A stretch of 64,000 bases of DNA from Ignavibacteria bacterium (GTDB lineage: Bacteria > Bacteroidota > Ignavibacteria > Ignavibacteriales > SURF-24): positions 1 to 64,000 of the forward strand of contig JAAXKQ010000022.1 of NCBI GenBank assembly GCA_025612245.1. The letters are read 5' to 3'. Of this stretch, positions 37,498 through 58,488 are shown piece by piece. How positions within the stretch are numbered: the stretch's first letter is position 1; every line of letters starts with the position of its first letter. The notes under the pieces were generated by a model. It ran no database searches and had not been told where the DNA came from. It worked only from the letters and a program-made list of their open reading frames with translations. The translations under genes and the position numbers were made by a program.

Positions 37498-38820
37498 TTG
37501 AAAGCAGTATTAAAAATGGTTGCTCTTGTAGCAATCGCATCCGTATTATTCTTCAGCTGTGGAAACAAACAGCAGCAGTCCGGCGGCAAGGTTGTTGTAA
37601 TTTTCTGGCACAGCTTTGTTTCCTCAACCGTACCAGCCTTAAACGAACTGATTGCCCGCTTCGAAAAAGAACATCCCAACATTGAAATCAAAGCACAGTA
37701 CGTGCCTACCGGCGACGCACTTATTCAGAAGCTCGTTACGGCAATACAGAGTAAAAGCGCTCCGGATATTTCGTGGATCCATTCGGATTTCATGGAGGAC
37801 CTGGTAAAGGCCGACGCCATCTACAAGATCCAGGATTTCAGCGAGGGTAAAAACGGCATCTCCAAAGAAGATATGGCCGACATCTATCCCGCTCTTCTGC
37901 AGTATGCATCCTGGCGCGGTACACTCTACAGCATGCCAATGGAGGCTACCAACCTGGCACTCCTTTACAACAAAGATATGTTCCGGAAGGCAGGCCTCGA
38001 TCCCAACCATCCTCCCAAGGACTGGAATGAGCTGCACGAATATGCAAAGAAACTCACGCTTGACAATAACGGCGACGGGAAGTACGAACAGGTTGGAATG
38101 TTTCTTCCCATTTATCCTGCCGCGGGACCTTTAAGTGCCTGGATGGTATGGCAGTTTCTTCCCTACCTCTGGCAGGCAGGAGGAGACGTCATTACGGACG
38201 AGCAGACGAGGGTGCTTTATAACGGTGCACCCGGGATTGAAGCCCTCAGGCTCTGGCAGAATATATATAACGAATTAAACCTTTCCACATTTACCTCCGA
38301 CTACGACGTTGCATTTGCTTCAAGGCACCTGGCCATGGCAATGGACGGCCCATGGAACCTTCCGCGGTACAATGAAATCCTTAAGAACCTTAACTGGGCA
38401 TTTGCCCCCCTGCCCGCAGGACCAAACAAACAGGCAACAATCGTTGGCGGCGAGTACCTGGCCATATTCAAGCAGAGCCAGCATCCGGATGCCGCCTGGG
38501 AGTTTGTAAAGTGGATGACAAAGCCTGAGGTCCAGGCCTTCTGGTCCATGCGATCCGGCTACCTGCCAATCAGGCATGCGGTCAGGAATGTTCCGGAGTT
38601 CCAGGAATACCTGAAGAAAAACCCGAACTTCAAGGTCTTCGTTGACCAGATGGAAGTGGGCCTGGCAGAAAAGCCGATTGATTACGGGGGGCTTCAGATT
38701 ACGCGCCACATTGCAGAGGCAATTGAAAAGGCTACGGTAGGAAAGATGGACGTAAAAAGGGCCCTCGACGAGTCGGCCGCCAAATCGGATAAACTGCTGA
38801 GCTCGTATTCGAAAAAGTAG
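37498..38820 (+). CDS. ABC sugar importer, substrate-binding lipoprotein
   Basis: The 440-residue protein has a lipoprotein signal ending at Cys21 (VLFFSC) and a family 1 extracellular solute-binding fold: VVVIFWHSFVSS, ALIQKLVTAIQSKSAPDI and a WEFVKWMTKPEVQAFW segment near the C-terminus. This UgpB/MalE type binds oligosaccharides or glycosides in the periplasm. The start is TTG with AAAAGGGG seven bases upstream. Two permease genes follow, but no ATPase, which must be encoded elsewhere. Confidence 0.94.
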   Translation: MKAVLKMVALVAIASVLFFSCGNKQQQSGGKVVVIFWHSFVSSTVPALNELIARFEKEHPNIEIKAQYVPTGDALIQKLVTAIQSKSAPDISWIHSDFMEDLVKADAIYKIQDFSEGKNGISKEDMADIYPALLQYASWRGTLYSMPMEATNLALLYNKDMFRKAGLDPNHPPKDWNELHEYAKKLTLDNNGDGKYEQVGMFLPIYPAAGPLSAWMVWQFLPYLWQAGGDVITDEQTRVLYNGAPGIEALRLWQNIYNELNLSTFTSDYDVAFASRHLAMAMDGPWNLPRYNEILKNLNWAFAPLPAGPNKQATIVGGEYLAIFKQSQHPDAAWEFVKWMTKPEVQAFWSMRSGYLPIRHAVRNVPEFQEYLKKNPNFKVFVDQMEVGLAEKPIDYGGLQITRHIAEAIEKATVGKMDVKRALDESAAKSDKLLSSYSKK

Positions 38821-38837
38821 GAAAAAGAGTTAGAATT

Positions 38838-38872
38838 AAAAAGTAAAAAGTAAAAAGTAAAAAGTAAAAAGT
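38838..38872 (+). repeat. Five perfect AAAAAGT heptamers
   Basis: Five exact tandem copies of AAAAAGT lie in the 91-base gap between the binding-protein gene and the first permease gene, on the sense strand. It is the purest of the three heptamer arrays in the window. Confidence 0.95.
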
Positions 38873-38911
38873 AAGAGCAGAATAAGTTGGGGCAGAAAGA
38901 GAATACACAGT

Positions 38912-39889
38912 ATGAATGAAACAGAAACTGTAGCAAAGAAAGATTTATCGCAAAAGGCCGGGCTTTCAGGTAAAGAGAAAGATCAGGCTAAAGTAAAAAA
39001 AACGGGCAAAGGCACTTACAAAAAAGGTGACGGCCTGAGCGCCCTGCTGTTCTTGTCGCCGACGCTCGTGGTGTTTACTACTTTTATATTGTTCCCTGTC
39101 ATTTTTTCTTTTTACCTGAGCTTCCAGAGGTGGAATATGTTCAGCAGCCAGACCACCTTCGTGGGCTTTGAGAACTATATACGCATGTTCCAGAGCGAGG
39201 AGTTCTGGCAGGTGCTGAAAAATACAGCAATCTACACATTCGGCACCATTCCGCTTAACATGGGATTTTCGCTCATGGTTGCCTATGCGCTGAATAAAAA
39301 AATAATAGGCAAGAAGTTCCTTCGCACCGCATTTTTCGCTCCCGTCATTATTTCCCCCGTTGCAGCGGCGGTTATATGGAGGTGGCTCTATGACCCGAAC
39401 TTTGGGCTGATAAATTATTTTATCGGGCTTTTCGGAATAGGCGCCATTAACTGGCTTAATGACCCTACGGCTGCAATGTTCGCACTCATTATCATGGGAG
39501 TCTGGAAAACCTTCGGCTACAACATGGTGCTCTTTTCAGCCGGGCTGCAGGGCATACCTGAAACTTATTACGAAGCCGCGATGATCGACGGGGCGGGAAG
39601 GTGGACGCGCTTCTGGCGAATTACAATTCCGCTACTGAGTCCAACGACCTTCTTCATCATGGTCATGTCCATGATCGGCTCTTTCCAGGTCTTTGACATT
39701 GTTTACGTGCTTACTTCGGGAGGCCCTCTTGGCTCTACAAAAGTTCTCGTCTTCTACGTTTATGAACATGCATTTAAGTTTTTTGAAATGGGCTACGCAT
39801 CGGCAGTGGCTTATGTGCTCTTTGCAATACTGTTCGTTTTTACGATGCTTCAAATGAAATACATGAAATCAAAAGTTTTAGGAAACTAA
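38912..39889 (+). CDS. ABC sugar importer permease, MalF/UgpA type
   Basis: The 325-residue protein has a charged ~40-residue Lys-rich N-terminus, six membrane segments from about 45, and the EAA loop YYEAAMIDGAGRWTRFWRI (two parts: EAAMIDGAG and ITIPLL) that contacts the ATPase. It pairs with the next permease. The long basic N-terminus is unusual for MalF-type proteins of this size; no better start is visible. Confidence 0.94.
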   Translation: MNETETVAKKDLSQKAGLSGKEKDQAKVKKTGKGTYKKGDGLSALLFLSPTLVVFTTFILFPVIFSFYLSFQRWNMFSSQTTFVGFENYIRMFQSEEFWQVLKNTAIYTFGTIPLNMGFSLMVAYALNKKIIGKKFLRTAFFAPVIISPVAAAVIWRWLYDPNFGLINYFIGLFGIGAINWLNDPTAAMFALIIMGVWKTFGYNMVLFSAGLQGIPETYYEAAMIDGAGRWTRFWRITIPLLSPTTFFIMVMSMIGSFQVFDIVYVLTSGGPLGSTKVLVFYVYEHAFKFFEMGYASAVAYVLFAILFVFTMLQMKYMKSKVLGN

Positions 39890-39893
39890 TTAT

Positions 39894-40739
39894 ATGTCCG
39901 GCAAAGGATTAAATAAAACCATAAAGATATCCAAAGGTATAATATTCCATTTGGTTATTTATGCCCTGGCGCTGGCCACGCTGGCACCTTTTATATGGAT
40001 GGTGTTGACCTCGCTTAAGGACATGAACGAAATTTACGTCTATCCGCCCAGGTGGCTTCCTGAGAAATTCCGTTTTGAAAATTACAAGAACGCCTTTGAG
40101 GCTGCTCCCTTCGGGCGGTACTATCTTAACAGCATCATTGTATCCCTGTCGGTTACACTTGGACAGCTGATCACATGTTCGATGGCGGCATTTGCCTTTG
40201 CAAGGCTTCGCTTCAGGGGAAGTAATATTCTTTTTTATATCTTCCTGGGCACGATGATGATCCCTTACAATGTGACTATGATACCAAGCTTTATGATGCT
40301 CTACTGGCTCGGATGGATTGATTCCTTTAAGGCACTGATTGTTCCGGGGCTTGCAAGCGCATTCGGGACGTTTCTACTCAGGCAGTTCTTTATGACGATT
40401 CCGAAAGAACTGGAAGAGGCCGCCTACATAGATGGTGCAAGCCGGTTCAGCGTACTGATGAGGATAATTATACCGCTTTCAAAGCCAGCGCTGGCAACGC
40501 TCGCAATTTTTACCTTTATGGGAGCATTTAACGACTTCATCTGGTCCCTGATCGTTCTGAACTCAGAGGAGATGCGGACCGTACAGCTGGGTCTTGCAAT
40601 ATTCAGGGACAGGTATCTTACGCAGTGGGATCTTTTAATGGCGGGATCTGTAACTGCTGTGCTGCCGATTCTGCTGGTTTTCTTTTTCGCACAGAAATAT
40701 TTTATAAAAGGTATTACGCTAAGTGGACTCAAAGAGTAG
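39894..40739 (+). CDS. ABC sugar importer permease, MalG/UgpE type
   Basis: The 281-residue protein has six membrane segments and the EAA loop EEAAYIDGASRFSVLMRI followed by IPLSKPAL. It begins four bases after the first permease stop. With the binding protein it forms the importer; the ATP-binding subunit is missing from the window, as is common for family 1 sugar importers that share an MsmX/UgpC-type ATPase. Confidence 0.94.
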   Translation: MSGKGLNKTIKISKGIIFHLVIYALALATLAPFIWMVLTSLKDMNEIYVYPPRWLPEKFRFENYKNAFEAAPFGRYYLNSIIVSLSVTLGQLITCSMAAFAFARLRFRGSNILFYIFLGTMMIPYNVTMIPSFMMLYWLGWIDSFKALIVPGLASAFGTFLLRQFFMTIPKELEEAAYIDGASRFSVLMRIIIPLSKPALATLAIFTFMGAFNDFIWSLIVLNSEEMRTVQLGLAIFRDRYLTQWDLLMAGSVTAVLPILLVFFFAQKYFIKGITLSGLKE

Positions 40740-44563: not shown

Positions 44564-46552
44564 ATGAGAAAGTTGAGTGTACCGTTTCTTGCACTTTTAC
44601 TTTTGTCGTTTATGTCTATGAGCTATGCGCAGACTGAGTATACGCGCAAGCAGGTGGATGTACCGAAAGTAACGGGAAAAATTACCATTGACGGTAAGAT
44701 GAATGAAGCTGATTGGTCGAAGGCGGCGCAGGCAAACATTCTTACTGCAAACGGGTCGGAAGGGTTCTTCAACAAGTACTATGACTTCGGTGAAGCATTA
44801 ACCGAGCCCGACTACAAGGAAATCTACGGCCGCATGCTCTGGGATAAGGATACACTGTATCTTTTCTATCACGTTCAGGAAGTAGTCAATGATTCCATGG
44901 TTCTTTACTTCGGAAAGAAGTTCGAGGCGGACCAGGTTTTGGTAGGCCTGTCAAACCGCCAGGGAATAGACACGCTTCAGAAGCCGTGGGACTACAACGG
45001 CTCACCTTTTACGGCTCCTGACGGACCTTATCTTTATTTTGTCCTAGGGAAAAATGTAACGCTCAATGGCGGAGATTCGACTGACGTTCCGGAGGCTTAC
45101 AGAAGAGACTCCACGATAAAAAAGGAGATATTTGACGCCTCAAAATATGCACGCTGGGCTGCAACAATCGATACCCTTACAGGCATCTATGAAATTGAAA
45201 TGGCTATCTATAGTCCGGGAATAAACGCCCAGTCGAAAATCGGCTTTAATTTAGGCGGCAGCAACGGTCAGAGAAAGCTCGATTTCTATGAAGGCGACCG
45301 TACGTATGAATATTACGCCTGGCAGCCTAATGTGCCGAATGATCCGTACAAAGACCCGATTGGAGAAGGAAAAGATCCTGGATATTATAACCTGGTTATT
45401 TCCAAGCACTGGGCAATTCTCAACTTCCTGCCCGGAGCCTCAGATACACTGGTAAAGAAAGTCGTAAATGTTCCTCCTGTACAGGAAGGAGCTCTAAAGA
45501 TCGACGGTAAGATGAATGAAGCCGAATGGAACGCAGCGGCACAGGCAAACATTCTTACTGCAAACGGTTCGGAAGGGTTCTTTAACAAGTATTATGACTT
45601 TGGGGAGGCTTTGACTGAGCCCGACTACAAGGAAATCTACGGCCGCATGCTCTGGAGCAAGGATACTTTATATTTATTCTATCACCTCCAGGAAGTAGTC
45701 AATGATTCCATGGTCCTTTACTTCGGAAAGAAGTTCGAGGCAGACCAGGTATTAATCGGCTTATCCGACCGCCAGGGAATTGACACTCTTCAGATGCCGT
45801 GGGACTATAACGGCTCGCCTTTCAGCGCCCCTGACGGACCTTATATCTACTTTGCTCTCGGGAAAAATGTAACGCTCAATGGCGGAGATTCGACGGACGT
45901 TCCGGATCAGTTCGTGAAAAATTCGGTTATGAAGAAAATATTCAATGCAGCGGATTATGCGCGCTGGGCCGCAAATATCGATACCGTAGCCGGTACGTAT
46001 GACCTGGAAATGGCAATTTATAATCCGAACATCGCCGCAAACACAAACATTGGTTTCAACCTTGGCGGCAGCAACGGTCAGAGAAAGCTCGATTTCTATG
46101 AAGGCGACCGTACCTATGAATATTACGCCTGGCAGCCGAACGTAGCGAATGATCCGTACAAGGACCCGGTTGGAGAAGGAAAAGATCCTGGATATTATAA
46201 CCTGGTTATTTCCAAGTACTGGCCGGTATTGAACTTCGTTACACAGCCGCTTGACGTCAGGAAAGAAGCTTCGAAGTTTTCGCCGTCAAGATTTGGCCTG
46301 GAGCAGAACTACCCGAACCCGTTTAACCCGTCAACTACAATACGCTTTGAAGTTCCACAGGTAAGCAAAGTGACCATAAAGATCTATAACGTTGTAGGAC
46401 AGGTAGTTACCACGCTTGTAAACGGGCAGGTAATGTCGGCCGGAAGGTATGAAGTAAGCTGGGATGCAAGCCGCCTGGCAAGTGGTGTTTACTTCTACAA
46501 TCTTGAAGCGGGCAATGTTCATTTGACAAAGAAGATGATGCTGCTCAAGTAG
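44564..46552 (+). CDS. T9SS-exported protein with two duplicated CBM9-like domains
   Basis: The signal peptide (1-22, ending SYAQ) is followed by two tandem copies of a ~245-residue domain (about 42-288 and 313-558). Each opens with IDGKMNEA and contains LYLFYHxQEVVND and GFNLGGSNGQRKLDF, the pattern of CBM9-type/DOMON-like carbohydrate-binding modules. A type A T9SS sorting domain follows from about 574 (LEQNYPNPFNPST, then GVYFYNLEAG and KKMMLLK). So it is secreted and anchored or released by T9SS. AGGAGG precedes the ATG. Sugar binding is inferred from the fold. Confidence 0.85.
   Translation: MRKLSVPFLALLLLSFMSMSYAQTEYTRKQVDVPKVTGKITIDGKMNEADWSKAAQANILTANGSEGFFNKYYDFGEALTEPDYKEIYGRMLWDKDTLYLFYHVQEVVNDSMVLYFGKKFEADQVLVGLSNRQGIDTLQKPWDYNGSPFTAPDGPYLYFVLGKNVTLNGGDSTDVPEAYRRDSTIKKEIFDASKYARWAATIDTLTGIYEIEMAIYSPGINAQSKIGFNLGGSNGQRKLDFYEGDRTYEYYAWQPNVPNDPYKDPIGEGKDPGYYNLVISKHWAILNFLPGASDTLVKKVVNVPPVQEGALKIDGKMNEAEWNAAAQANILTANGSEGFFNKYYDFGEALTEPDYKEIYGRMLWSKDTLYLFYHLQEVVNDSMVLYFGKKFEADQVLIGLSDRQGIDTLQMPWDYNGSPFSAPDGPYIYFALGKNVTLNGGDSTDVPDQFVKNSVMKKIFNAADYARWAANIDTVAGTYDLEMAIYNPNIAANTNIGFNLGGSNGQRKLDFYEGDRTYEYYAWQPNVANDPYKDPVGEGKDPGYYNLVISKYWPVLNFVTQPLDVRKEASKFSPSRFGLEQNYPNPFNPSTTIRFEVPQVSKVTIKIYNVVGQVVTTLVNGQVMSAGRYEVSWDASRLASGVYFYNLEAGNVHLTKKMMLLK
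44687..46235 (+). repeat. In-frame tandem duplication, 813-base period
   Basis: Positions 44687-45425 repeat as 45500-46235. The offset is 813 bases at the start and 810 near the end, one codon having been lost (EAYRRDST versus DQFVKNS). Long stretches are nearly identical at DNA level, for example around GGCGGCAGCAACGGTCAGAG and across the last ~60 bases, indicating a recent duplication or ongoing gene conversion. Confidence 0.95.
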
Positions 46553-46580: not shown

Positions 46581-46606
46581 AGGCCTGCCTGAAATACGGC
46601 AGGCCT
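46581..46606 (+). terminator. Hairpin between the T9SS protein and dehydrogenase genes
   Basis: Nine-base perfect arms (AGGCCTGCC and complement) with an eight-base loop lie 28 bases after the stop. There is no T run, so it may be a weak terminator or processing hairpin. Confidence 0.5.
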
Positions 46607-46649
46607 CTGCGGTAGTTAAATTTCAGAAATTTGAATTATGGAGATTAAA

Positions 46650-47603: not shown

Positions 47604-47695
47604 TTAAGAAGTTATTCTTGCACCTCCGCATGAGCTAAGGAGAGAAAACAATGCGGAGAGAAGAGAAGTTTTAAGTTAAAAATAGAGAGAAACTT

Positions 47696-50566
47696 ATGTC
47701 TCGAGTTAAAATTCAGACAGGATTATTTTGGGCAGCAGTAATAGCTGTCTTACTGCCATTATATTTAAGTAATGGCGTATATGCCCAGACCGGGGGTAAA
47801 ATTTCCGGAAAGGTAATCGATGCCGGTACCAGGGAGCCTCTGCCGGGAGTTACAATCCGCGTTGAGGGATCAAAACAGGGTGCTGTAACCGACGTGGAGG
47901 GGGACTATTTCATCTTAAACGTCACTCCGGGTACGGTAAGCCTTCAGGCCTCTATGGTAGGCTACCAGGGAATTGTAAAGACGAACGTCAATATCAGTGC
48001 AAACCACACCACTAATGTCGATTTTAGTCTTGAGGCTACGGTGGTCTCCGTCGGGCAGGACGTTGTGGTTACGGCAGAAAGGCCACTGGTTGAAAAGGAT
48101 CAGACTTCAACCAGGCACTTTGTTGAAGCTACGGACATAGCCGCAAGGCCGACCACACAGCTGACTGAAATTCTGACTACACTGCCTGGCATAGACATGA
48201 GTAACGGGCAGGTTGTAGTGCGCCGCGGCTCACTGGACCAGGTTTCGTTTTTAATTGACGGCATAAGGGCCCGCAACCCGCTTGACTTCCAGCCCTATAC
48301 AAATATCAATATTACCTCCATCCAGGAGCTGGAAATCATTACAGGCGGCTTCAACGCAGAATATGGTGAAGCTCAGTCGGGCGTATTTAACATTATTACA
48401 AAGGAAGGCGGGAACACCTATTCCGGCACCAGCGAATTCCGCTGGACACCGCCGGGGCTTCATCACTGGGGAACGGCTTTCTATGATTATTCTACTACCC
48501 GCTACTGGGAGAACACCCACGCAAGGCACCTGCAGTGGTGGATCGACCATCCGGATCAGTGGGTTGACCCCAACGGCATCCCGGGAAATGACCCCAGAAG
48601 CAGCTGGACCCCCGAACAGGCATACCAGGATTATATGCAGACGCATCAGCCCCTGACCGACTACACTAACGAGAGCACTTATCAGGAAGAGCTCTCCTTC
48701 GGAGGCCCGGTACCGTTTGTGAAAGACCTGTTTTTCTTTGCCTCCGGCAAATACCGCACGGCACCTCCCATTACGGGAAACAGCATCAGGAGGATGGGCA
48801 AGTGGTTCGACGGCACGGCAAAACTGACTTATCGCCTGAATGACGCAATTAAACTCATGTTCTCGGGCTTCTACGGCCTGCAGAACTCAAACCAGGGAAT
48901 GGAATATATGGATGCCGACTGGGTAAGCGGTTACGGGCTGCAGAACAAATATGCCTACTACGACTTCCCTGGTTATCCTGAAAACAGGACTGACGGACAG
49001 ACACTGCAGATGACGCACGTGCTTGGCGTAAGCACGTTTTACCACATACAGTTAAGCAGGGTTCACAGATACCGCAGCCAGGGCACTTTCCCGAACGATC
49101 CCAACGGATGGGACCTGGGTGTTGCGGCCTATGACCGCCTGAGGGCATTAGATGAGTTCGGAAACCCGCTTATTGAAGCATCCAGCAACCTGATTGGCCT
49201 TCATACTACGGGCTATTACTACAGAGGACGCGACAACAACACGGACATGTCCTTATCGGGTGACCTTACGAGCCAGCTTAACAAGGCCTGGCAGGTAAAG
49301 ACGGGCGGTGACTTTACTTATTACACGCTCAAGCGCTTTCAGGAATCCAAGGCCTGGAATGCAATTGAAGATGCTACGTATCACCCGTACGAAGGAAACA
49401 TTTACGTACAGAACAAGCTCGAGTTCGGTGGCCTTATTATGAACCTTGGCCTGAGATTTGATTTCTATAACGCCAACGATAAGATATACCTGGATCCTTT
49501 TGATCCTTTCGACCTCATAGCCTCGGCAAAGGAAGGACGCGCACCTAATCCGAAAACGGCTCATACAAAAACCTACGGGCAGCTTTCGCCAAGAATCGGT
49601 ATTTCTCACCCGATCTCTGAAAAAACGGTGCTCCATTTCTCATACGGGCACTTCTTCCAGAGAGCCAGCTTTGGCGATTACGGCGAAGGCACCGACGTAA
49701 CTGGCATATTAAATACCTATCTTGATTACAGGACAGGAACGCCGGTTCCGTATAACCTTGGGAACAGGGACCTGAAGCCGAGAAAAACGGTCGCCTACGA
49801 GCTCGGTATTGAACACAACTTCGGCGGCCTGGTAGCCGATGCAACGGCTTTCTACAAGGACATTACAAAAACCATACGTACCATAACCGTTTACACAAGA
49901 GACAAGGCGCATTACCTCACCTCGGGTAACGGGGATTACGGAGATGCCAAGGGAATTGAAATCTCAATTAACAAGCCCTTGACCGGCTACTGGGGCGGAT
50001 ACCTTAATTATTCATGGAGCACGGGAATAAACGGCTATTCGGGTGACCCGACTATCATTACCCCGCCCGGAATGAGATTGCCGGTCACACAGACCAACTA
50101 CGTAGGAGACCAGATAGTATATGATCCATCAAGGCTTAAATTCGGTTTTACGGTTGCAACGCCTAAAGACCTGGGCTGGCTTGCCGGCATATTCTCCGAC
50201 CTGCAGATTTCGCTCGACTACCAGGTCTATTATCCCAATTCCAACATTCCCGATGACGTATTTCCCGAGGCAGGAAAGCAGTACATACGCACTGCCAACA
50301 GGAATGCCGACATACGTATAAGAAAAGAGATTGATTTCAAGATACTGCGTCCGGCCTTGTTCCTTGAATTAAGGAATGCTTTCAACGACCAGTGGGTTAA
50401 CTTAAGTGCCGTTAAACAGGCCTCACCCGAGGACAGATCCCGGTTTATCAACTCGGGGCTGACCGTATTTCCTGAAAAGAACATTAACGGCACCCCGTTC
50501 CCGGACGTAATTGCCTACTCCAATCTGCCGCGTCAGGTTGTTTTGGGTCTGGCAATAAGTTTTTAG
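47696..50566 (+). CDS. TonB-dependent outer-membrane receptor with CarboxypepD_reg-like domain
   Basis: A signal peptide (1-30, ending VYAQ) is followed by a carboxypeptidase-regulatory-like domain (about 34-115, GKISGKVIDAGTREPLPGV), a plug domain (about 135-240 with DIAARPTTQLTEILTTLPGI and EYGEAQSGVFNIITKEGG) and a 22-strand-type barrel to the C-terminus (VLGLAISF). It imports a large ligand, presumably an oligosaccharide, using TonB energy. No SusD homologue follows. The next two genes encode a T9SS-type secreted protein and a PorV-like barrel, which may take SusD's place. Confidence 0.93.
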   Translation: MSRVKIQTGLFWAAVIAVLLPLYLSNGVYAQTGGKISGKVIDAGTREPLPGVTIRVEGSKQGAVTDVEGDYFILNVTPGTVSLQASMVGYQGIVKTNVNISANHTTNVDFSLEATVVSVGQDVVVTAERPLVEKDQTSTRHFVEATDIAARPTTQLTEILTTLPGIDMSNGQVVVRRGSLDQVSFLIDGIRARNPLDFQPYTNINITSIQELEIITGGFNAEYGEAQSGVFNIITKEGGNTYSGTSEFRWTPPGLHHWGTAFYDYSTTRYWENTHARHLQWWIDHPDQWVDPNGIPGNDPRSSWTPEQAYQDYMQTHQPLTDYTNESTYQEELSFGGPVPFVKDLFFFASGKYRTAPPITGNSIRRMGKWFDGTAKLTYRLNDAIKLMFSGFYGLQNSNQGMEYMDADWVSGYGLQNKYAYYDFPGYPENRTDGQTLQMTHVLGVSTFYHIQLSRVHRYRSQGTFPNDPNGWDLGVAAYDRLRALDEFGNPLIEASSNLIGLHTTGYYYRGRDNNTDMSLSGDLTSQLNKAWQVKTGGDFTYYTLKRFQESKAWNAIEDATYHPYEGNIYVQNKLEFGGLIMNLGLRFDFYNANDKIYLDPFDPFDLIASAKEGRAPNPKTAHTKTYGQLSPRIGISHPISEKTVLHFSYGHFFQRASFGDYGEGTDVTGILNTYLDYRTGTPVPYNLGNRDLKPRKTVAYELGIEHNFGGLVADATAFYKDITKTIRTITVYTRDKAHYLTSGNGDYGDAKGIEISINKPLTGYWGGYLNYSWSTGINGYSGDPTIITPPGMRLPVTQTNYVGDQIVYDPSRLKFGFTVATPKDLGWLAGIFSDLQISLDYQVYYPNSNIPDDVFPEAGKQYIRTANRNADIRIRKEIDFKILRPALFLELRNAFNDQWVNLSAVKQASPEDRSRFINSGLTVFPEKNINGTPFPDVIAYSNLPRQVVLGLAISF

Positions 50567-50594
50567 AATAACAATTTAATCGCGAGTTGCAAAA

Positions 50595-52793
50595 ATGAAA
50601 TTCTTTAGAATTAAACTTTATCTCCCCGTGCTGCTTCTGCTTGCAGCGGTTTTCTCAAACCCTGTTTTTGCACAGCAGAACTCGGCAACACACACGCGCG
50701 GAAAGTTATGGGAGACTTTATATAACTGGGGGTTTATTGGCGACCCGGGTGCCTGGGATTATACGGAAACAACGGGTATCGGTTTTTATCCCGGTTTCCC
50801 GGGCTTTACATACCCGAACAATGAGGAACTGGCCAACGGTTTTATAACCGACGCAAATTTTCACAATTTCCGCAGCGGTCCCTGGATCATCGTTAAGGAC
50901 GTCCAGGTTCCGGTAGCCCCGAACTTCGACCCTGAGCAGAAGGATTTTGCAATGTATCACGCCTCACTGGCTACAGGTGATAACGGTGTTTTGAATACTA
51001 TTCCCCCCTTTAGCGTAAAGGAGAATTTTGTCGGCTCGGCCGATTTCAATCCCCTTCTGCCCGAGGAAATGAATACAATTACATTTAACACTTCGACCGG
51101 AATTACGGTAACGCAGCGCTCTATGGCATGGAGCTATCCCGGATACCACGATTTCATCATTTATGATTATACTTTCAAGAACACGGGACAGATGGTTGTA
51201 TCCTCTGTGAATAAGACCTTCAATATTCCACAGACGCTCAAGGAAGTATGGTTTGTTTTCCACAGCGGAATTAACGTTTCTACCAAGGGAATGCTTAACT
51301 TCCACTACAACAGCAACTTTCTTGCCTCAGCTGCTCCGGCAGGAGGCTTCGGCTGGCACCCCGGAAACGGCTACTTTAATTATTATAGCGTGGAAGACGA
51401 AGCTCCCAACGACGGCAAAGGACTTCTTTACTACAGCCGCCACTATAACGGCGGCAGGGAGCCCGCCCCGTGGGATAAATACGGATTAAAAACCAACTGG
51501 CAGGACCAGTTAAAGGTGAAAAAAGAATGGGCTCCGGAATTGCAGGACCCCTCGGCATTCGGTTTTGAGTTCCTTTACCGCACTCCCCCGCAGGGTGCTG
51601 CAAGTCAGGACCCCTTTGACGCAGATCCTTCGTTCTTCAATATCTATAGCGACGAGGGGGACAAGTTTGCGGGCAAAACCGTCGACTTTGAATCCTTCGG
51701 CCTGAACACGTTCAGTCTTAAAGAGCTTTATGACTTTGCACGCCACGATAAAAGGCCCGCCAACAAAGGAAACCTTTACTGCTGGTATACCAGCTCTTTC
51801 GGCCCTTACACGCTAGCCGTAGGCGACTCGGTCAGGATTATTTTAGCTGAAGTTGCCGGGGTAATGGACTTAAAGCAGGTGCAGATGGGAGATCCGAATC
51901 ACTGGTTTCCCGACAGTACAATTGCCGCAATCAGAAGGAACGCCGCGGCTGCAAGAAACGCGGTCAGATGGGGCATGGGTGCCACGGTCCAGGGAATTAA
52001 CATTGCAGCAGACGTTCCCGATGCTCCACCTGCTCCAAACTGTTCGGCTGCCAATGCGTCAAAGGGTTCCGACACGGCAATAGTTGCAATTCAGTGGGAT
52101 AAACTGGCTGAAACAACACAGATCAACGACGCCTCGGGCCAGGTCTTCTATGACGGCTCGACGGATCTTGGCGGATACAGGATATTCAGGAGCAACGATA
52201 AAAGAGGCATATGGGACCTTGTTGCCGACATACCAAGGGCACAGATGCAGGATTACTGGAGAGCGGACCTGAATAAATATGAGTACCTGGACAAGAACCT
52301 CCAGTTCGGATTTGAGTTCTACTACTATGTTCAGGCCTACAACAGCAAGCCCAGGTCATGGACTTCGGCAAACGGGACAAAGGTTAACACGCTGCCCGAA
52401 TTAAAGAGCGATGACTATAACCGCACGCCTCTGGTTAGCGCAAAGCCGGGGCCGGTGGATGTAAGTGCCGGATGGGACGTTTTTGCAGCGCCTAACCCGT
52501 ATATTGAAGGCGACCCTGATCACAGCTTTGGTGCCCCGACGCCGATGAAAATTGAATTCAGAAACCTGCCTGAAAAAGCAACAATTAAAATCTTCAGCCT
52601 TTCGGGCGACCTGATCAAGACCATACATCACGGCCCGGATGAAAACGGTAACCTTTCGGGAAGTGCCAGCTGGGAACAGCGCTCTGAATCAGGGCTGCTC
52701 GTTGCACCCGGCTTGTATATTTACGTTGTCCAGTCAGAAGCCGCGGGATCTGCCGGGAGTAAATTTACCGGCAAGTTGATGATTATACGCTAA
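50595..52793 (+). CDS. Large secreted protein with T9SS-like C-terminus
   Basis: The 732-residue protein has a signal peptide (1-26, ending VFAQ), a long aromatic-rich region of no recognised family with many Trp and Tyr (for example GFGWHPGNGYFNYY), an Fn3-like region (about 530-605) and a C-terminal ~100-residue domain beginning VFAAPNPYIEGDP, with ATIKIFSLSGDLIKTI and a final GKLMIIR. That end is a T9SS sorting-domain variant common in Ignavibacteria. It lies 28 bases after the TonB receptor gene and 48 before the PorV-like gene, so it is probably a surface partner for ligand capture. Confidence 0.82.
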   Translation: MKFFRIKLYLPVLLLLAAVFSNPVFAQQNSATHTRGKLWETLYNWGFIGDPGAWDYTETTGIGFYPGFPGFTYPNNEELANGFITDANFHNFRSGPWIIVKDVQVPVAPNFDPEQKDFAMYHASLATGDNGVLNTIPPFSVKENFVGSADFNPLLPEEMNTITFNTSTGITVTQRSMAWSYPGYHDFIIYDYTFKNTGQMVVSSVNKTFNIPQTLKEVWFVFHSGINVSTKGMLNFHYNSNFLASAAPAGGFGWHPGNGYFNYYSVEDEAPNDGKGLLYYSRHYNGGREPAPWDKYGLKTNWQDQLKVKKEWAPELQDPSAFGFEFLYRTPPQGAASQDPFDADPSFFNIYSDEGDKFAGKTVDFESFGLNTFSLKELYDFARHDKRPANKGNLYCWYTSSFGPYTLAVGDSVRIILAEVAGVMDLKQVQMGDPNHWFPDSTIAAIRRNAAAARNAVRWGMGATVQGINIAADVPDAPPAPNCSAANASKGSDTAIVAIQWDKLAETTQINDASGQVFYDGSTDLGGYRIFRSNDKRGIWDLVADIPRAQMQDYWRADLNKYEYLDKNLQFGFEFYYYVQAYNSKPRSWTSANGTKVNTLPELKSDDYNRTPLVSAKPGPVDVSAGWDVFAAPNPYIEGDPDHSFGAPTPMKIEFRNLPEKATIKIFSLSGDLIKTIHHGPDENGNLSGSASWEQRSESGLLVAPGLYIYVVQSEAAGSAGSKFTGKLMIIR

Positions 52794-52841
52794 ACAAATA
52801 TCCGGGCAACGGCCGGGTATAAAGTAACTGGAGGAAGAAAA

Positions 52842-53825
52842 TTGAAAAAGCTAATAACAATAACAATTGCGCTGCTGCTGGGAATTTCCGGCCTCATTCC
52901 GGCGCAGTTTAATAAAGCCGGACGCACGACTTTTCAGTTCCTTAAGATAGGCGTAGGCGGGCGTGCTGCTGCTTTGGGCGAAGCAGTCATTGCAAATACA
53001 CAGGATATCAACTCCGTGTACTGGAATCCTGCGGGACTTACCGGCATAGAGAACCTGGAGGCGGGAGTAAACTATACAAAATGGATTGCAGACCTGAGCG
53101 TTACCTCCGGGGCCATTGGCTATAACTTCGGGCCTGCCGTGATTGCCTTTAACTACATGGGATTGAACTATGGCAACATACAGGAGGCCCTTACTACCAG
53201 CTCTTCGGGCAGGGTGGATACAAGGACGGGCTCCACATTTACAGGAAGCGATCTGGCGCTCGGCGTTACGCTTGCAAGGCGTTTTACGGATCAGCTCTCA
53301 ATTGGCGTTAACGTGAAGTACCTGCGTGAGAACCTATTTACCTACTCCACGTCGCTTTGGGCTGCGGATGTTGGAACTTACTACGACACTCAGTGGAAAG
53401 GCGTACGCATTGCAATGACGGCGCAGAACTTCTCGAAGCAGGCACGCTGGATGTTTACAAAAGAGGAAACGCAGCAGTCTTATGAGCTTCCGCTCGTCTT
53501 CCGCATCGGGACCTCAATTGACCTCCTGGGCGGAGAAAACCTCTTTCTGGGCGGAGACGGCGCGGTGAACCGTTTTACTCTGAACGTCGACGCAATTCAT
53601 ACGAACGATTATGCCGAAAGGCTTCACATAGGCGGAGAGTACGTCTTTATGAATATGCTTTCCTTAAGGGCCGGTTATAGGATGAACTACGAGGAAGGCA
53701 ACCTGGCCCTCGGTGCAGGCTTTAAGACGGAACTCTCGGGCATTAAGATGGAATTTGATTACGCATACGTTAAATACGATTTCCTGGAATCACCGCACAG
53801 ATTCTCACTGATTTTTGCATTTTAA
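52842..53825 (+). CDS. PorV/PorQ family outer-membrane barrel
   Basis: The 327-residue protein has a signal peptide (1-21, ending IPAQ) and the PorV/PorQ opening FLKIGVGGRAAALGEA with SVYWNPAGLTG, then barrel strands to the C-terminal FSLIFAF. PorV shuttles T9SS cargo by binding sorting domains at the outer membrane. Because the previous gene encodes such a cargo, this paralogue could be its dedicated shuttle or anchor. Translation starts at TTG with GGAGG before it. Confidence 0.9.
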   Translation: MKKLITITIALLLGISGLIPAQFNKAGRTTFQFLKIGVGGRAAALGEAVIANTQDINSVYWNPAGLTGIENLEAGVNYTKWIADLSVTSGAIGYNFGPAVIAFNYMGLNYGNIQEALTTSSSGRVDTRTGSTFTGSDLALGVTLARRFTDQLSIGVNVKYLRENLFTYSTSLWAADVGTYYDTQWKGVRIAMTAQNFSKQARWMFTKEETQQSYELPLVFRIGTSIDLLGGENLFLGGDGAVNRFTLNVDAIHTNDYAERLHIGGEYVFMNMLSLRAGYRMNYEEGNLALGAGFKTELSGIKMEFDYAYVKYDFLESPHRFSLIFAF

Positions 53826-53854
53826 GAAGTTAATATAGAGAGGAAGAAACCGAT

Positions 53855-56800
53855 ATGGCATTTTCACAAAAACTGATTACCGGAGAAAAACTTACACCTG
53901 AGAGTTTCAAGAACCCTCCCAAAGAAATGGGCATACTCCCCTTCTGGTTCTGGAACGGCGAGATGGATGAAAAGGAAATGGAATGGCAGATGAAAGAGTA
54001 TCACGACAAGGGAATTCCGGGACTTTTCATCCACGGGCGTTTTGGCGAAGAAATAGGCTACCTGTCGCAGCTGTGGTTTGAAAGAGTAAAGTTTGCCGTA
54101 AATAAGGCCAAGGAAATCGGCCTCGACATCTGGGTCTACGATGAGATGAACTGGCCGAGCGGCACGGCTGAACGTCAGGTAATTAAAAAGTACCCGCACC
54201 TGTCGCAAAAATATCTTGAGCTTGTAGCCCTTAACGTGGATGGCCCATTGTTTACATTCCTCGAGGCAACAGATTCGAGATACGTCAACACAGGGGATTC
54301 CCGCCCGATTGCCGCCTTTGCATGTTCGGCAGATGAATACAAGAATGGGATCAAAGAGCTAATAGACCTTACTCCCAACCTGTCCTTCAACAAGGTCATT
54401 CCATGGGAAGCTCCCGCGGGAAAGTGGAAACTCCTTTATTTCCTGGAAAAGGAAGTGCCATACTATATTGATGCGCTCAACCCTGAATCCACGAACAGGT
54501 TCATTGAGCTTACGCACGAAAGATACAAGGCTTCCGTTGGAAATGACTTCGGGACAATTGTGCCGGGTTTTTATACCGATGAACCCGCAATGCACTACTA
54601 CCAGGTAGGCGTGGATAACTACGTGGTCCCCTGGTCGAGCCAGATGTTTAAGATATTCAGGCAGAGGCGCGGCTACGACCTGAAGCCTTATCTGCCTGCC
54701 CTTTACGTCAATATGGGAGAGATTACGTCCAAAATCCGCTATGACTTCTGGCGAACATTAAGCGAGCAGTATACGGATTCCTACTACAAGAGGCTTCGGC
54801 AGTGGTGCGATGAGAACGGCCTCATATTCACGGGCCACGTCCTTTTCGAGGAATGGCTGAGGCTGCAGGCAAGGTGCGAAGGCAACATATTCAAGCACTT
54901 AAAGCAGATGCACATTACGGGCGTAGATCACCTTTATCCCAAGATCGGAACCGAAAGAGAGCCCGATCAGCACGTGGCGCTGAAGCTTGCCAGTTCGGCT
55001 GCCCACCACTACGGAAGCACGAGGCTGCTTTGCGAATCGATGGGCGGGGCATACTGGGACTGTACGCTCGAACGCATGAAGTGGATTGCAAACTGGGAAT
55101 ACGTTCTGGGTGTAAACCTATTCAACAATCATGGATACCATTATTCAATTGAAGGCGAAAGAAAGCGCGACTGGCCGCCCTCGCAGTTCTATCATCATAC
55201 ATGGTGGAACAATTACAGTGAGTTCACGACTTACATGTCGCGCCTTGGGCACCTTCTTTCGGGCGGAAGGCACGTTGCAAAGGTGCTCGTACTGTACCCT
55301 CTTAACAGCATCTGGACAAACTACACCCCGCAGAAAAGGAACAACGTGAGCAAGACAATTGAAGACAACTTCAATTTCCTTACGGATTCACTCTTAAGGC
55401 TTCACTGCGATTATGACTATGTGGATGAAGACGTGCTCATTTCCTCAAAGTTAAACAGGGATGTAATTAAAATTGCAGAAGAGGAATATTCGCTTCTTAT
55501 ACTTCCTCCTCTGACGCACATAAAAAAAGAGACTTTCGAAGTCATAAAGAAATTTGTTGAAAACGGCGGCCGTGTGATTGCCGATACCATCCTGCCAGTA
55601 GAGTTCCTTGAGGCTGAAACGGACGGCGCCGCAAAAGAGGTAAGCGGGATTTTCGGGGTCAACCCGGAGGATTTGCTGGAGCAGTTTAAGAACGGCTCGC
55701 AGTTCAAGGGGCTCAAATCCAAAAAGAACGTCCATCTCTTTGGGGCAAAAGGAAGAACAAAAGCCGAAAGGCGCGAAGAACTCGGAAAACTGATAAATAA
55801 ACTGATTGAGCCCGACGTGATAATTGATAATGAAGACGTCTTCTACCTGCACCGCATTAAAGACGGCTACGACATTTATTTTATCGTCAATACGGGACAA
55901 AAAGAAATTGGAAGGGTTGAAGTGTCATTTGAAAAAGCAGGAAGCCCTGAACTCTGGGACCCCGATTCAGGTGAGGTTAAGCCCCTGTTTGTCTACCAGA
56001 TAAAAAACGGAAGGACAGTAGTAAGCCTGGACTTTGCGGCAAGCCAGTCGCACGCGGTTATAATAAAAAACGGGCAGAAAAAGGTTTTTATCAGTGAGAC
56101 CAACCTTGTAGTGGAAAATTTCGACGGCAGGAATGCTACGGGGTACCCCATAGATGACTCAAAAGAAATCTTCCTCAAGGCTGAAACGGCAGGGGGAATA
56201 AAAAAGTTCAGGCAGGCTCAAAAGAGGCATTACGCTCCTGTAAGGCTCGGCCGAACGTTTAAGTTTGATATAGAAGAAGACAACGTCCTTTTAATCGGAA
56301 GCTGGAAGATGAAGGTGGAAGAACAGGAAGCGGGAACTGACTATTCGCAGGCCTCATTTGACGACACGGAATGGCTCAGCGTGACAAACGGTGCCTGGGA
56401 GATGCAGCTTCCGCAGGAAAGGGACGTTGAAAGCTACCCGGTAAGCCTGTGGTACCGTACTAGCTTTGAAATCGAAAAGATGACGGAAGGAGGTGCCTTA
56501 AAGCTCCTGATTGACGGCTTTAGCGGCAAAGAACACACCCTTTATATAAACGGCACGGAGATAAAAGACAAGGGTACAAGAAGCTACCTCGATGCCGAAA
56601 TCAAACAGGTTAATATCAGCAATTTTGTGCACGAAGGCACTAACACGGTTGCCGTGAGGCTCATAGCACAAAGAAGGACAGACGGAATCCTGGACCTGTT
56701 AAAGATAACCGGGAAGTTCGCCCTAGCAAAGGCTGAGAAAGGCTATAAGATCGTAAGCAAGCCGGATAAGATTAAAGTCGGCGACTGGACAAAGCAGGGC

Positions 56801-57118
56801 TTTCCGTTCTTCTCGGGAACGGCCACCTATGAAACTGAGTTTGTGGTGCCGGAAGACTACACAAACGGCAAATTCTTCCTTGAGGTCAACCCGGGTGAGG
56901 ACGTCCTGGAAGTCATACTAAATGACAATGCAGGCAAGGTTGTGCCATGGCATCCATACAGGCTTGAGGTTACCGGGATGCTTCGAAGCGGGAAAAACAC
57001 TCTAAAGCTCAGGGTGACAAATACGCTGATAAATGTGCTTGAGGCAGTCCAGAAAAAGTCGGGAATATTTTCTGAACCTGAAATTACCTTTAAGCCCCTT
57101 TATGTCGTTACAATATAA
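53855..57118 (+). CDS. GH106-like glycosyl hydrolase (alpha-L-rhamnosidase type)
   Basis: The 1087-residue protein lacks a signal peptide. Its barrel opens with LPFWFWNGEMDEKEMEWQMKE (two parts), GLFIHGRFGEE and VYDEMNWPSGTAE; later GFYTDEPAMHYY, CEGNIFKHL and CESMGGAYWDCTLERMKW, a pattern I associate with GH106 alpha-L-rhamnosidases and close relatives. C-terminal jelly-roll domains of GH2 sugar-binding type follow (LWYRTSFEIEK near 865 and TYETEFVVPED near 990). A cytosolic rhamnosidase would act on imported oligosaccharides. Exact catalytic Glu residues and substrate are not certain. Confidence 0.82.
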   Translation: MAFSQKLITGEKLTPESFKNPPKEMGILPFWFWNGEMDEKEMEWQMKEYHDKGIPGLFIHGRFGEEIGYLSQLWFERVKFAVNKAKEIGLDIWVYDEMNWPSGTAERQVIKKYPHLSQKYLELVALNVDGPLFTFLEATDSRYVNTGDSRPIAAFACSADEYKNGIKELIDLTPNLSFNKVIPWEAPAGKWKLLYFLEKEVPYYIDALNPESTNRFIELTHERYKASVGNDFGTIVPGFYTDEPAMHYYQVGVDNYVVPWSSQMFKIFRQRRGYDLKPYLPALYVNMGEITSKIRYDFWRTLSEQYTDSYYKRLRQWCDENGLIFTGHVLFEEWLRLQARCEGNIFKHLKQMHITGVDHLYPKIGTEREPDQHVALKLASSAAHHYGSTRLLCESMGGAYWDCTLERMKWIANWEYVLGVNLFNNHGYHYSIEGERKRDWPPSQFYHHTWWNNYSEFTTYMSRLGHLLSGGRHVAKVLVLYPLNSIWTNYTPQKRNNVSKTIEDNFNFLTDSLLRLHCDYDYVDEDVLISSKLNRDVIKIAEEEYSLLILPPLTHIKKETFEVIKKFVENGGRVIADTILPVEFLEAETDGAAKEVSGIFGVNPEDLLEQFKNGSQFKGLKSKKNVHLFGAKGRTKAERREELGKLINKLIEPDVIIDNEDVFYLHRIKDGYDIYFIVNTGQKEIGRVEVSFEKAGSPELWDPDSGEVKPLFVYQIKNGRTVVSLDFAASQSHAVIIKNGQKKVFISETNLVVENFDGRNATGYPIDDSKEIFLKAETAGGIKKFRQAQKRHYAPVRLGRTFKFDIEEDNVLLIGSWKMKVEEQEAGTDYSQASFDDTEWLSVTNGAWEMQLPQERDVESYPVSLWYRTSFEIEKMTEGGALKLLIDGFSGKEHTLYINGTEIKDKGTRSYLDAEIKQVNISNFVHEGTNTVAVRLIAQRRTDGILDLLKITGKFALAKAEKGYKIVSKPDKIKVGDWTKQGFPFFSGTATYETEFVVPEDYTNGKFFLEVNPGEDVLEVILNDNAGKVVPWHPYRLEVTGMLRSGKNTLKLRVTNTLINVLEAVQKKSGIFSEPEITFKPLYVVTI

Positions 57119-57142: not shown

Positions 57143-58063
57143 ATGAATACGAGCGGAGTACTTGTTGTAGGCAGTGCCAATATGGATATGGTAGTAGTTT
57201 GTGAAGAATTTCCCAAGCCAGGCGAGACGATTCTTGGCCGTCAGTTCGGTATGTTTGCCGGAGGCAAGGGAGCCAACCAGGCTGTCTGCAGCGCAAAGCT
57301 AGGGGGAGATACTTTCTTTGTCGGAAAAATGGGCAACGATATCTTCAGGGAGAAACTGTCGCAGAATATGAAAAGTGACGGCGTCAGGCTGGACTATCTT
57401 TTAATTGACAACGCCGAGCCGACCGGCATAGCCCTCATTACGGTTAATGGCTACGGGCAGAATGAAATTGTGGTCGTATCCGGAAGCAACATGAAGCTCA
57501 CGCCCGAGGACATAAATTCACATGAGAAGGCTTTTCTTGAAGCCGGTGTGGTAATTACGCAGCTTGAGATACCGCTTAAAACAGTAATGGAGACGGCGCG
57601 CATTTCAAAAAAGCACGGGGCCGTCTTTATTCTTAATCCAGCTCCGGCAACTAGGCTTCCCGATGAACTCTTAAGGCTTACGGATTACATTACTCCAAAC
57701 GAGATTGAGCTTGAAATGCTTTCAGGCATTCCTGTTTCGGATGCCGGATCTGCTACAACTGCGGCTAAAAGGCTTATAGACAAGGGAGTAAAGAACGTAG
57801 TTGTGACTTTAGGCTCAAAAGGTGCGCTTCTAGTAAACAGGGACCGGAGTGAAATTTTTACGGCAAGAGAAGTTGACGTAGTCGACAGCACTGCTGCAGG
57901 GGACGCTTTTAACGGGGCACTGGCCTTTGCCATTTCCGAGGGAAAGACTATAGACGAGGCAATCAGGTTTGCCAACATCGTAGCCTCTTACTCCGTTACA
58001 AAGCTTGGGGCACAGACTTCCATGCCTACGATGGATGAAATCAAAGCGGTAAAAATGTTATAA
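57143..58063 (+). CDS. rbsK: Ribokinase
   Basis: The 306-residue PfkB-family kinase shows VGSANMDMV (10-18), GGKGANQA (40-47), NPAPA (165-169), TLGSKGALL (222-230) and DSTAAGDAFNG with catalytic Asp254. The pattern matches RbsK, which phosphorylates D-ribose at O5. GAGGAAAA precedes the ATG. It is followed 17 bases on by rbsD, but no ribose transporter gene is near; ribose may come from a glycoside hydrolysed by the neighbouring enzymes. Confidence 0.9.
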   Translation: MNTSGVLVVGSANMDMVVVCEEFPKPGETILGRQFGMFAGGKGANQAVCSAKLGGDTFFVGKMGNDIFREKLSQNMKSDGVRLDYLLIDNAEPTGIALITVNGYGQNEIVVVSGSNMKLTPEDINSHEKAFLEAGVVITQLEIPLKTVMETARISKKHGAVFILNPAPATRLPDELLRLTDYITPNEIELEMLSGIPVSDAGSATTAAKRLIDKGVKNVVVTLGSKGALLVNRDRSEIFTAREVDVVDSTAAGDAFNGALAFAISEGKTIDEAIRFANIVASYSVTKLGAQTSMPTMDEIKAVKML

Positions 58064-58080: not shown

Positions 58081-58488
58081 ATGAAGAAAAACGGAATATT
58101 AAATTCAGAGCTCTCCCGCGTGGTTGCCGCAATGGGACACACGGATAAACTTGTCATCTGCGACAGCGGTCTTCCGATACCAAGGGATGCCGAGCTCATA
58201 GACCTCGCCTTAAGTACCAACCTGCCGGGTTTTATTGACACGCTTAAAGTCATCTTAGAAGAGCTGCAGATCGAAGAGGCCATCGTGGCCGAAGAGATGC
58301 TTGACGTAAGCTGCGGTGTCTTTGATGAGGTAATGACGCTTCTGCCAGAGGTGAAAATACAGAAGGTTTCCCACGAGGAATTTAAGAATATTACGAGGAA
58401 CCCCGAGGGAAATATCGCCTTTGTGCGCACGGGCGAAGCCACTCCTTATGCAAATATAATACTGGTCTCCGGCGTAACATTTAACTGA
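58081..58488 (+). CDS. rbsD: D-ribose pyranase
   Basis: The 135-residue protein starts MKKNGILNSELSRVVAAMGH, with His20 in the catalytic position, followed by ICDSGLPIP, and ends with TGEATPYANIILVSGV. RbsD interconverts pyranose and furanose forms of ribose so that RbsK receives the right form. Length and motifs are standard. AGGGGAATAAAT before the ATG is a good binding site. The RbsK-RbsD pair in one operon supports real ribose or ribose-like sugar use. Confidence 0.94.
   Translation: MKKNGILNSELSRVVAAMGHTDKLVICDSGLPIPRDAELIDLALSTNLPGFIDTLKVILEELQIEEAIVAEEMLDVSCGVFDEVMTLLPEVKIQKVSHEEFKNITRNPEGNIAFVRTGEATPYANIILVSGVTFN

Follow-up and report, generated by a model that had tools for sequence, protein, structure and literature searches.

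The window analysed here is a stretch of 64,000 nucleotides from an Ignavibacteria bacterium (contig JAAXKQ010000022.1, positions 1 to 64,000 of the forward strand, part of contig C42 in a 4.84 Mb genome of 44 contigs). It carries three adjoining genes that recur together as a cassette: a TonB-dependent receptor, a secreted 732-residue protein that we name MID, and an outer-membrane barrel of the PorV/PorQ family. We consider it probable that MID is the glycan-capture partner of the receptor, exported by the type IX secretion system (T9SS) and kept on the cell surface by its own barrel. From the conservation and co-divergence of the three genes, the predicted domain anatomy of MID and the gene context, we infer that the C-terminal domain (CTD) of MID is retained and docked, and that the protein binds glycans and hands them over. 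A preliminary description of the window had pointed to a TonB receptor followed at tight spacing by a 732-residue protein with a T9SS-like C-terminus and a PorV/PorQ barrel, and this set is borne out by the open reading frames (ORFs), Pfam and NCBIfam. In the ORF list, the three genes lie on the same strand, with gaps of 28 bp between receptor and MID and 48 bp between MID and barrel.

Eleven loci of the genome share one arrangement: receptor, MID and barrel follow each other in this order on one strand, with gaps of 6-64 and 10-121 bp. Their MID proteins are of a short type of about 700 amino acids (the window, L050, L053 and L055), a long type A (L043, L045, L046, L047 and L049) and a long type B (L051 and L052); an hhalign comparison of the short profile with the long-A profile covers 449 columns (probability 100, E 2e-45). 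Apart from its strong paralogue matches, the window MID gives 13 weaker ones in other parts of the genome. The association of the three families is far above expectation: 12 of the 39 TonB-plug matches have a same-strand PorV-family gene within 8 kb downstream (0.55 expected), and a MID gene sits between the two in 11 of those 12. Neither a PorV-family gene nor a full MID was found in 20 other receptor regions (21 receptors; five plug genes lie outside this set). One of these control regions (L240) has at its edge, on the opposite strand, a cut ORF encoding an ordinary T9SS tail; its similarity to MID is confined to the CTD. A twelfth locus (L044, contig C14:92000-111999, positions 5959-15878) has adjacent receptor and barrel genes with two T9SS-tailed proteins upstream, one of them MID-like, and a 526-aa gene between.

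Among the 11 copies, the pairwise distances of the three families are strongly correlated (r 0.95, 0.90 and 0.94, with 0 of 20,000 permutations as high in each case), indicating that the families have been inherited and duplicated as a unit. Confined to the long-A or the short subgroup, where members are few and power is little, the Mantel tests are mostly unremarkable, with 3 to 31 of the 24 or 120 permutations reaching the observed value. The partial correlation of divergence is strongest for the receptor and the N-terminal part of MID (0.75 in short and 0.59 in long cassettes), a pair that is favoured because long proteins yield less noisy distances. It is 0.33 (short) and 0.10 (long) for the MID CTD and the barrel, and a private matching of CTD and barrel is therefore not demonstrated.

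The cassette is conserved well beyond this genome. All 26 genomes analysed at the order level (our own and 25 relatives) have MID-profile matches (3-30 each) and PorV-family members (7-32 each), and 80 regions around MID-profile matches were taken from the relatives. The first 60 comprise 36 top-ranked matches and 24 others, mostly the first long-type match per genome (L131 was chosen via a PorV match); 20 lower-ranked regions, the next-ranked matches except two beginning at a contig end, were added for a fairer denominator. The order receptor-MID-barrel was found in 76 of the 80 regions (60/60 of the first-chosen and 16/20 of the lower-ranked). Two regions (L254 and L255) have the order barrel, receptor, MID, with the MID tail YQKCIIIR, and are thus rearranged but complete; two others (L253 and L256) encode a MID-like protein with neither receptor nor barrel, in both cases with an ordinary cargo tail. 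In L094 and L124 the contig ends within the receptor gene, and in L131 the receptor is broken into two frames; one extra ORF lies between MID and barrel in L113 and L120.

A family search in named genomes extends this distribution. Of the best 79 loci, 69 are complete and five are cut by contig ends; where the contig leaves room, the receptor is upstream in 74/75 and the barrel downstream in 73/78, and many gaps are of -4, as in translationally coupled genes. The neighbourhood in relatives, which the preliminary description had proposed as a check, is thus conserved. The named loci include Ignavibacteria, Neomarinimicrobiota, candidate division KSB1, Caldithrix and its relatives, Stahlbacteria and WOR-3, Kryptonia, Rhodothermales and Gemmatimonadetes. 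Cassettes labelled Caldisericaceae, Stahlbacteria, WOR-3 and Gemmatimonadetes (L165, L170, L192, L193, L209 and L215) may reflect a wider spread or transfer, or mislabelled metagenome bins.

MID has the features of an exported protein. A signal-like hydrophobic stretch is present near the start of 68 of 71 MIDs, and none of the 71 has a lipobox in its first 40 residues, unlike the lipoprotein partner in SusC-SusD (RagA-RagB), the glycan and peptide uptake pairs of Bacteroidia. The AlphaFold2 model of the window MID, built from a 40-row alignment (mean pLDDT 68.6, pTM 0.70), matches the structure 5nz8 with a VIA-align Z of 16.4 (root-mean-square deviation 4.0, 276 aligned residues). A long-type MID (L049) that was separately aligned and modelled (mean pLDDT 79.1) matches dextran dextrinase (9ju0, Z 20.3, deviation 3.1, 262 aligned) and glucodextranase (1ug9, Z 19.8). 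Both subfamilies are thus predicted to carry a beta-supersandwich domain of the kind found in carbohydrate-active enzymes; the models cover the short and long-A MIDs, with the L051/L052 subfamily outside them. In GH94/GH116/GH15-type enzymes the supersandwich domain adjoins a catalytic barrel, and this helical (alpha/alpha)6 barrel is missing from both MID models. The likeness is in fold only, as the GH94 supersandwich model PF06165 is unlisted for the window MID at E 0.1, and a Pfam scan of this protein matched no glycosidase family and no SusD model. SusD structures are not among the fold matches listed for either model, which excludes nothing because the lists hold 50 Foldseek candidates. 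Single-sequence searches with MID returned only chance matches in the PDB and nothing in PHROGs. A peptide-pattern search for close relatives of the window MID found none in the genome contigs searched, because single-sequence patterns are too specific; the family alignment succeeded.

The C-terminus of MID points to the PorZ and PorU proteins of the T9SS. The window protein lies below the curated cut-offs for FlgD_ig (17.6 of 27) and Por_Secre_tail (16.4 of 23 bits), with PF18962 unlisted at E 0.1, and so does not classify as a type A cargo; the type B CTD models CHU_C and TIGR04131 are likewise unlisted at E 0.1. Among NCBIfam models, its CTD is closest to the C-termini of PorU and PorZ, below every cut-off. 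The CTD of the L049 paralogue superimposes on PorZ residues 684-776 (Z 11.6, 2.4 A, 92 residues, 28% identity), the closest solved CTD among the matches listed. Searched against the PDB, the MID family profiles retrieve no T9SS proteins other than PorZ and PorU, at weak E values of 0.0058, 0.15 and 0.69. The T9SS nature of the window C-terminus is supported by this fold match of the paralogue and by family-wide conservation. In 70 of 71 MID CTDs, as in the genome's own PorU, 12 residues separate a conserved W from the GxY motif, a spacing seen in 8 of 47 ordinary cargo CTDs, and a two-fold hidden Markov model (HMM) split separates 71/71 MID CTDs from 47/47 cargo CTDs. MID-like proteins without an adjoining barrel (L253, L256 and the SusCD-linked L060) end in ordinary cargo tails. 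The long type B MIDs carry an extra EQQILDRF after the usual CTD tail. MID is not itself a PorZ: the window protein scores 19.9 bits on NF052228 (cut-off 260), in its C-terminal stretch only, and the models show a supersandwich, whereas the ectodomain of PorZ consists of two beta-propellers. MID does have the CTD fold and the extended beta5-beta6 loop of PorU and PorZ, which retain their CTDs uncleaved (PMC11285876), and we infer that the MID CTD would also stay uncleaved.

The barrel belongs to the PorV/PorQ family (NF033709, 189.8 bits, cut-off 90; Pfam PorV also over cut-off). It is neither a plain PorV nor a plain PorQ, both being rejected by the equivalog cut-offs (NF033710, 80.4 of 250 bits; NF033711, 106.0 of 220 bits); of the two models, that of PorQ is the closer. 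The genome encodes its own PorQ (L048, 255.4 bits), PorV (L058, 252.1 bits), a separate PorU, SprA (815.9 bits) and a true PorZ (contig C3:65372-67627, 384.7 bits); there are also dozens of propeller-repeat matches to the PorZ model elsewhere in the genome. The PorV family has 17 members over cut-off in this genome. In a tree of 33 barrels, in which the deep branches are long, 27 cassette barrels stand apart from core PorV and PorQ, and the L044 barrel and one other family member fall among them. In Porphyromonas gingivalis, PorZ depends on PorQ for its retention at the membrane, PorU is held by PorV (PMC5562754), and PorZ binds a glycan (PMC8545088). The barrel had been proposed to be a dedicated PorV shuttle; more probably, it is a permanent anchor of the PorZ-PorQ type.

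The receptor is far from the canonical SusC. The window receptor scores 69.9 bits on the SusC/RagA model TIGR04056 (cut-off 368.25), the other 10 cassette receptors of the genome reach at most 85.5 bits, with three unmatched at E 1e-15, and the genome's true SusC scores 577.9 bits. No SusD/RagB homologue was found beside the window receptor. PF07980 has a single match in the genome, on contig C36 beside the true SusC, and none in the window; PF14322 has none in the genome, and PF12741 and PF12771, which we take to be other SusD-like Pfam models, were not searched. A SusD encoded elsewhere, another check that had been suggested, is thus accounted for by a gene paired with its own SusC. This SusD-SusC pair (L060, C36:1-12000, positions 551-7395) lies beside a divergently transcribed 681-aa MID-like protein, which matches the MID profile in its N-terminal part but ends in a CTD like that of ordinary cargo (SKKLALMK). 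At the order level, PF07980 has 1-2 matches in 5 of 26 genomes and PF14322 is found in 2 of 26. Published accounts describe susCD as rare in carbohydrate gene clusters of Ignavibacteriales and missing from Ca. Kapabacteria (PMC10576277), and report one susCDE operon in Melioribacter roseus (PMC3534657). The description of the module as SusD-less therefore holds for the window; the lineage is SusD-poor rather than devoid of SusD.

We surveyed 148 genomes of the phylum with the long-type MID profile, scoring five candidates per genome, so that MID numbers per genome are minima. Long-type MIDs were found in 61 genomes, SusD in 81 and neither in 41. All 27 genomes with at least eight SusD matches are without MID (Fisher p 1e-7, relatedness ignored), and MID-positive genomes have at most seven. 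In one family (f24), 13 MID-positive genomes have 0-5 SusD matches and five MID-negative genomes have 6-14, a pattern noticed post hoc, with genomes lacking both not listed.

The genes that accompany the cassettes are frequently related to sugars. Pfam summaries of the neighbours give the first 25 of 54, 45 and 63 families; the main set derives from the relatives and the control set from our own genome. The 161 operon-like neighbours in 60 cassettes of relatives include, among the families listed, GHL10 (10), GH106 (5), PfkB (5), RbsD (4), solute-binding proteins (4), ABC permeases (4), LacI (2), GH9 (2), GH16 (2) and sodium symporters (2), and also GH94, GH18, GH3, CBM48, CBM20, CBM9 and malectin domains. 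Ordinary T9SS tails are present in 38 of them (23/101 and 15/60). Since GH106 and RbsD are found in 5 and 4 of 101 neighbours, other genera have kept the gene set seen in the window. Other cassettes of this genome adjoin a GH94 enzyme (L045), a symporter and a GHL10 protein (L050) or a solute-binding protein (L049). In the control, 44 neighbours of other receptors, the sugar-related families listed are GH18, ROK and phosphomutase (one each), and these neighbours carry DUF4876, DUF6850 and DUF4249 instead. Two further families recur among those listed, TIG-domain proteins (15/101) and PpiC chaperones (Rotamase_2, 9/60). The TIG-domain protein that is often encoded 3' of the barrel (about 430 aa, tail ..PYYGR; L053:8279-9592 and many relatives) is possibly an accessory surface glycan-binding protein, and PpiC-type prolyl isomerases 3' of the barrel in several long-type cassettes (L049:11017-12627 and relatives) are perhaps private periplasmic chaperones.

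In the window, the cassette is part of a plus-strand gene run from 36199 to past 63000 (Table 1). The run begins with a LacI regulator, a solute-binding protein, two permeases, a GWxTD protein, a FadL-like barrel, a T9SS cargo and a zinc dehydrogenase; 3' of the cassette, genes for a GH106-type glycosidase, a PfkB kinase and an RbsD-type mutarotase are followed by an aldo/keto reductase gene and by one whose product weakly matches GH5/GH42. The cargo protein, one operon-length upstream of the receptor, consists of two near-identical halves of about 270 residues each. The FadL-superfamily barrel (43108-44403) weakly matches the BamG model (31.1 of 250 bits) and is preceded by a 318-aa lipoprotein-like gene. 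Promoter-like (8 versus 8.9 in shuffles) and terminator-like (15 versus 10.2) scans of 46000-54500 gave no boundary evidence.

Table 1. Features of the cassette and its gene cluster, in window coordinates.
Feature	Position	Strand	Basis and proposed role
LacI-family regulator, head of the co-directional cluster	36199..37215	+	PF00356
Sugar-type ABC importer: solute-binding protein and two permeases	37498..40739	+	PF01547; PF00528 twice
Ordinary T9SS type A cargo, internal duplication, tail KKMMLLK	44564..46552	+	PF18962 47.1 bits; TIGR04183 43.9 bits
TonB-dependent receptor gene	47696..50566	+	956 aa; CarboxypepD_reg domain, plug and barrel (PF13715, PF07715, PF00593 over cut-off); outside SusC model
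MID gene	50595..52793	+	signal-peptide-like start, no lipobox; cassette conservation; proposed surface glycan-binding SusD analogue
MID residues ~25-475	50667..52019	+	predicted beta-supersandwich resembling the N-terminal domain of GH94/GH116/GH15-type enzymes; no catalytic barrel
MID residues ~480-600	52032..52394	+	fibronectin type III (FnIII); family profile against PDB: Fn3-like 3mpc, E 9.5e-07
MID residues ~628-732	52476..52790	+	PorZ/PorU-type T9SS CTD; W-12-GxY loop; K-L-x-I-I-R tail
PorV/PorQ-family outer-membrane barrel gene	52842..53825	+	327 aa, TTG start; NF033709; tree; proposed dedicated MID anchor
GH106-type (alpha-L-rhamnosidase-like) glycosidase	53855..57118	+	PF17132 147.9 bits; no evident signal peptide (by eye)
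PfkB-family sugar kinase	57143..58063	+	PF00294
RbsD/FucU-family sugar mutarotase	58081..58488	+	PF05025

In the mechanism that we propose, the three genes would encode one outer-membrane uptake complex. MID would be exported by Sec and then by the genome's T9SS, and its CTD, left uncut, would dock on the PorQ-like barrel encoded next to it, in the manner of PorZ and PorQ in Porphyromonas gingivalis. Docking would put the supersandwich domain beside or over the receptor, and MID would capture oligosaccharides and pass them on to the receptor, which would import them by the TonB-driven route. Once inside the cell, the sugar would be taken by the ABC or symporter systems and the glycosidases of the same cluster; in the window, this inner set would be the sugar-type ABC importer, the GH106-type enzyme, the PfkB kinase and the RbsD mutarotase. 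With such a capture role MID would do the job of SusD, a protein anchor replacing the lipid anchor. That the secreted protein may be a SusD substitute delivered by the T9SS, as the preliminary description had suggested, finds support in the predicted carbohydrate-enzyme fold, the sugar-catabolic neighbours and the scarcity of SusD in the order.

Several observations weigh against this reading. The model of the window MID is of middling confidence, with 198 of 732 residues under pLDDT 50, and a common supersandwich fold proves no function, the known enzymes pairing this domain with a catalytic barrel. The CTD of the genome's own PorU scores cargo-ward in the HMM comparison (39.9 versus 37.0 and 42.4 versus 34.0 bits); the contrast in tails is partly circular, because the tail was among the criteria for choosing the cargo set, and the extra hairpin of PorU and PorZ is reported not to determine cleavage (PMC11285876). 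In some cassettes (e.g. L047, L051 and L052) the operon contains no evident sugar gene, and among the best 79 named loci, a barrel is missing beside receptor and MID in four (L168, L217, L223 and L229) and MID stands alone in one (L162). Finally, SusD and MID occur together in 35 of 148 genomes. A strict mutual exclusion of the two is thus rejected; given this coexistence and the absence of MID from SusD-rich genomes, they are not exclusive but trade off.

Other functions could be assigned to the same three genes. MID could be a surface enzyme or adhesin displayed by its dedicated barrel, with the receptor importing its products or other nutrients and no lid complex being formed. The fold is that of carbohydrate-active enzymes, and glycan systems often co-express enzymes and receptors, but both models are without the (alpha/alpha)6 catalytic barrel, no Pfam glycosidase family was matched, and the receptor covaries most strongly with the N-terminal part of MID, though long proteins favour that pair; we regard this explanation as unlikely. 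Rather improbable, in our view, is that MID and the barrel form an extra PorZ-PorQ pair serving as the attachment unit for a T9SS cargo encoded next door, with a receptor that is merely co-regulated. The PorZ/PorU-like CTD, the PorQ-like barrel and the ordinary T9SS tails among the neighbours would fit such a unit. However, it is the receptor that is the most constant neighbour, while cargo genes are not constant; the predicted ectodomain is a supersandwich with FnIII and not the two propellers of PorZ; and up to 11 units occur in addition to a single complete T9SS that has a PorZ and a PorQ of its own.

We consider it very improbable that the barrel transports small or hydrophobic products in the manner of FadL and does not bind MID. 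The PorV family is part of the FadL/OMPP1 superfamily, and the window barrel has a sub-threshold match to PF03349 (25.7 of 29.7 bits). Against this, the barrels score highest as PorV/PorQ family members, they lie directly 3' of a T9SS-exported protein in nearly all loci, and MID-like proteins with cargo-type tails occur without a barrel. A glycan-capture protein anchored beside its receptor remains our preferred explanation.

The cassette resembles several known systems. With SusC-SusD it shares a TonB receptor with CarboxypepD_reg, an adjoining gene for a surface partner, many paralogous copies and sugar-catabolic neighbours; it differs in that the partner is not SusD and not a lipoprotein but is T9SS-exported and accompanied by a PorV/PorQ-family barrel, and in a receptor far below the SusC cut-off. 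With the attachment complex PorZ-PorQ (and PorU-PorV) it has in common a surface protein of glycan-binding type, a T9SS CTD of the uncleaved type and an adjoining PorV-family barrel, whereas its ectodomain is predicted to be a supersandwich with FnIII, a TonB receptor accompanies it, and many copies exist beside the true PorU, PorV, PorQ and PorZ. Since the defining features tested for these two systems were not found, we file the cassette under neither. With the GH94, GH116 and GH15-type enzymes (cellodextrin phosphorylase, glucodextranase, dextran dextrinase), MID shares the predicted beta-supersandwich; unlike them, it is surface-exported and has neither a catalytic barrel nor a sequence match to the GH94 supersandwich. 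In Flavobacterium, T9SS type B proteins have dedicated PorP/SprF-like barrels as shuttles or anchors (PMC12618676, PMC9143113), and both arrangements place a T9SS protein's own barrel directly downstream, with surface retention. The cassette barrel is instead of the PorV/PorQ family and the CTD PorZ/PorU-like, and type A CTDs are said to share one PorV (PMC12618676). As type A CTDs share one PorV and type B proteins use PorP/SprF in these accounts, one PorV-family barrel per protein appears to be unreported in the literature searched. The best reading is that the cassette works like SusCD and is anchored like PorZ-PorQ, a variant of TonB-dependent glycan uptake. The suggestion that it represents an undescribed architecture of Ignavibacteria stands in so far as no description was found in the literature searched (subscription papers and preprints outside its scope); the restriction to Ignavibacteria falls with the named loci elsewhere.

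Whether the cassette constitutes a second, independently evolved class of glycan importer (TonB receptor, T9SS-exported supersandwich protein and PorQ-like anchor) whose capture protein shares no homology with that of SusD systems, the main import architecture of Ignavibacteria that has spread to related phyla, is in our estimate evenly balanced; the T9SS would then have been turned into an assembly line for uptake machines. Given the scarcity of susCD (PMC10576277), the cassette is a concrete candidate answer to the question of how such polysaccharide degraders import glycans. It is also a countable genetic marker, as susCD is for tools that find polysaccharide utilisation loci, and occurs in 61 of the 148 genomes sampled from the phylum as well as in named genomes of several other phyla. 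If the proposed function is correct, PorV-family barrels would serve as private anchors of PorZ-like surface proteins, the T9SS would be tied to nutrient uptake, and polysaccharide utilisation loci would become predictable in lineages where SusCD-based tools detect none.

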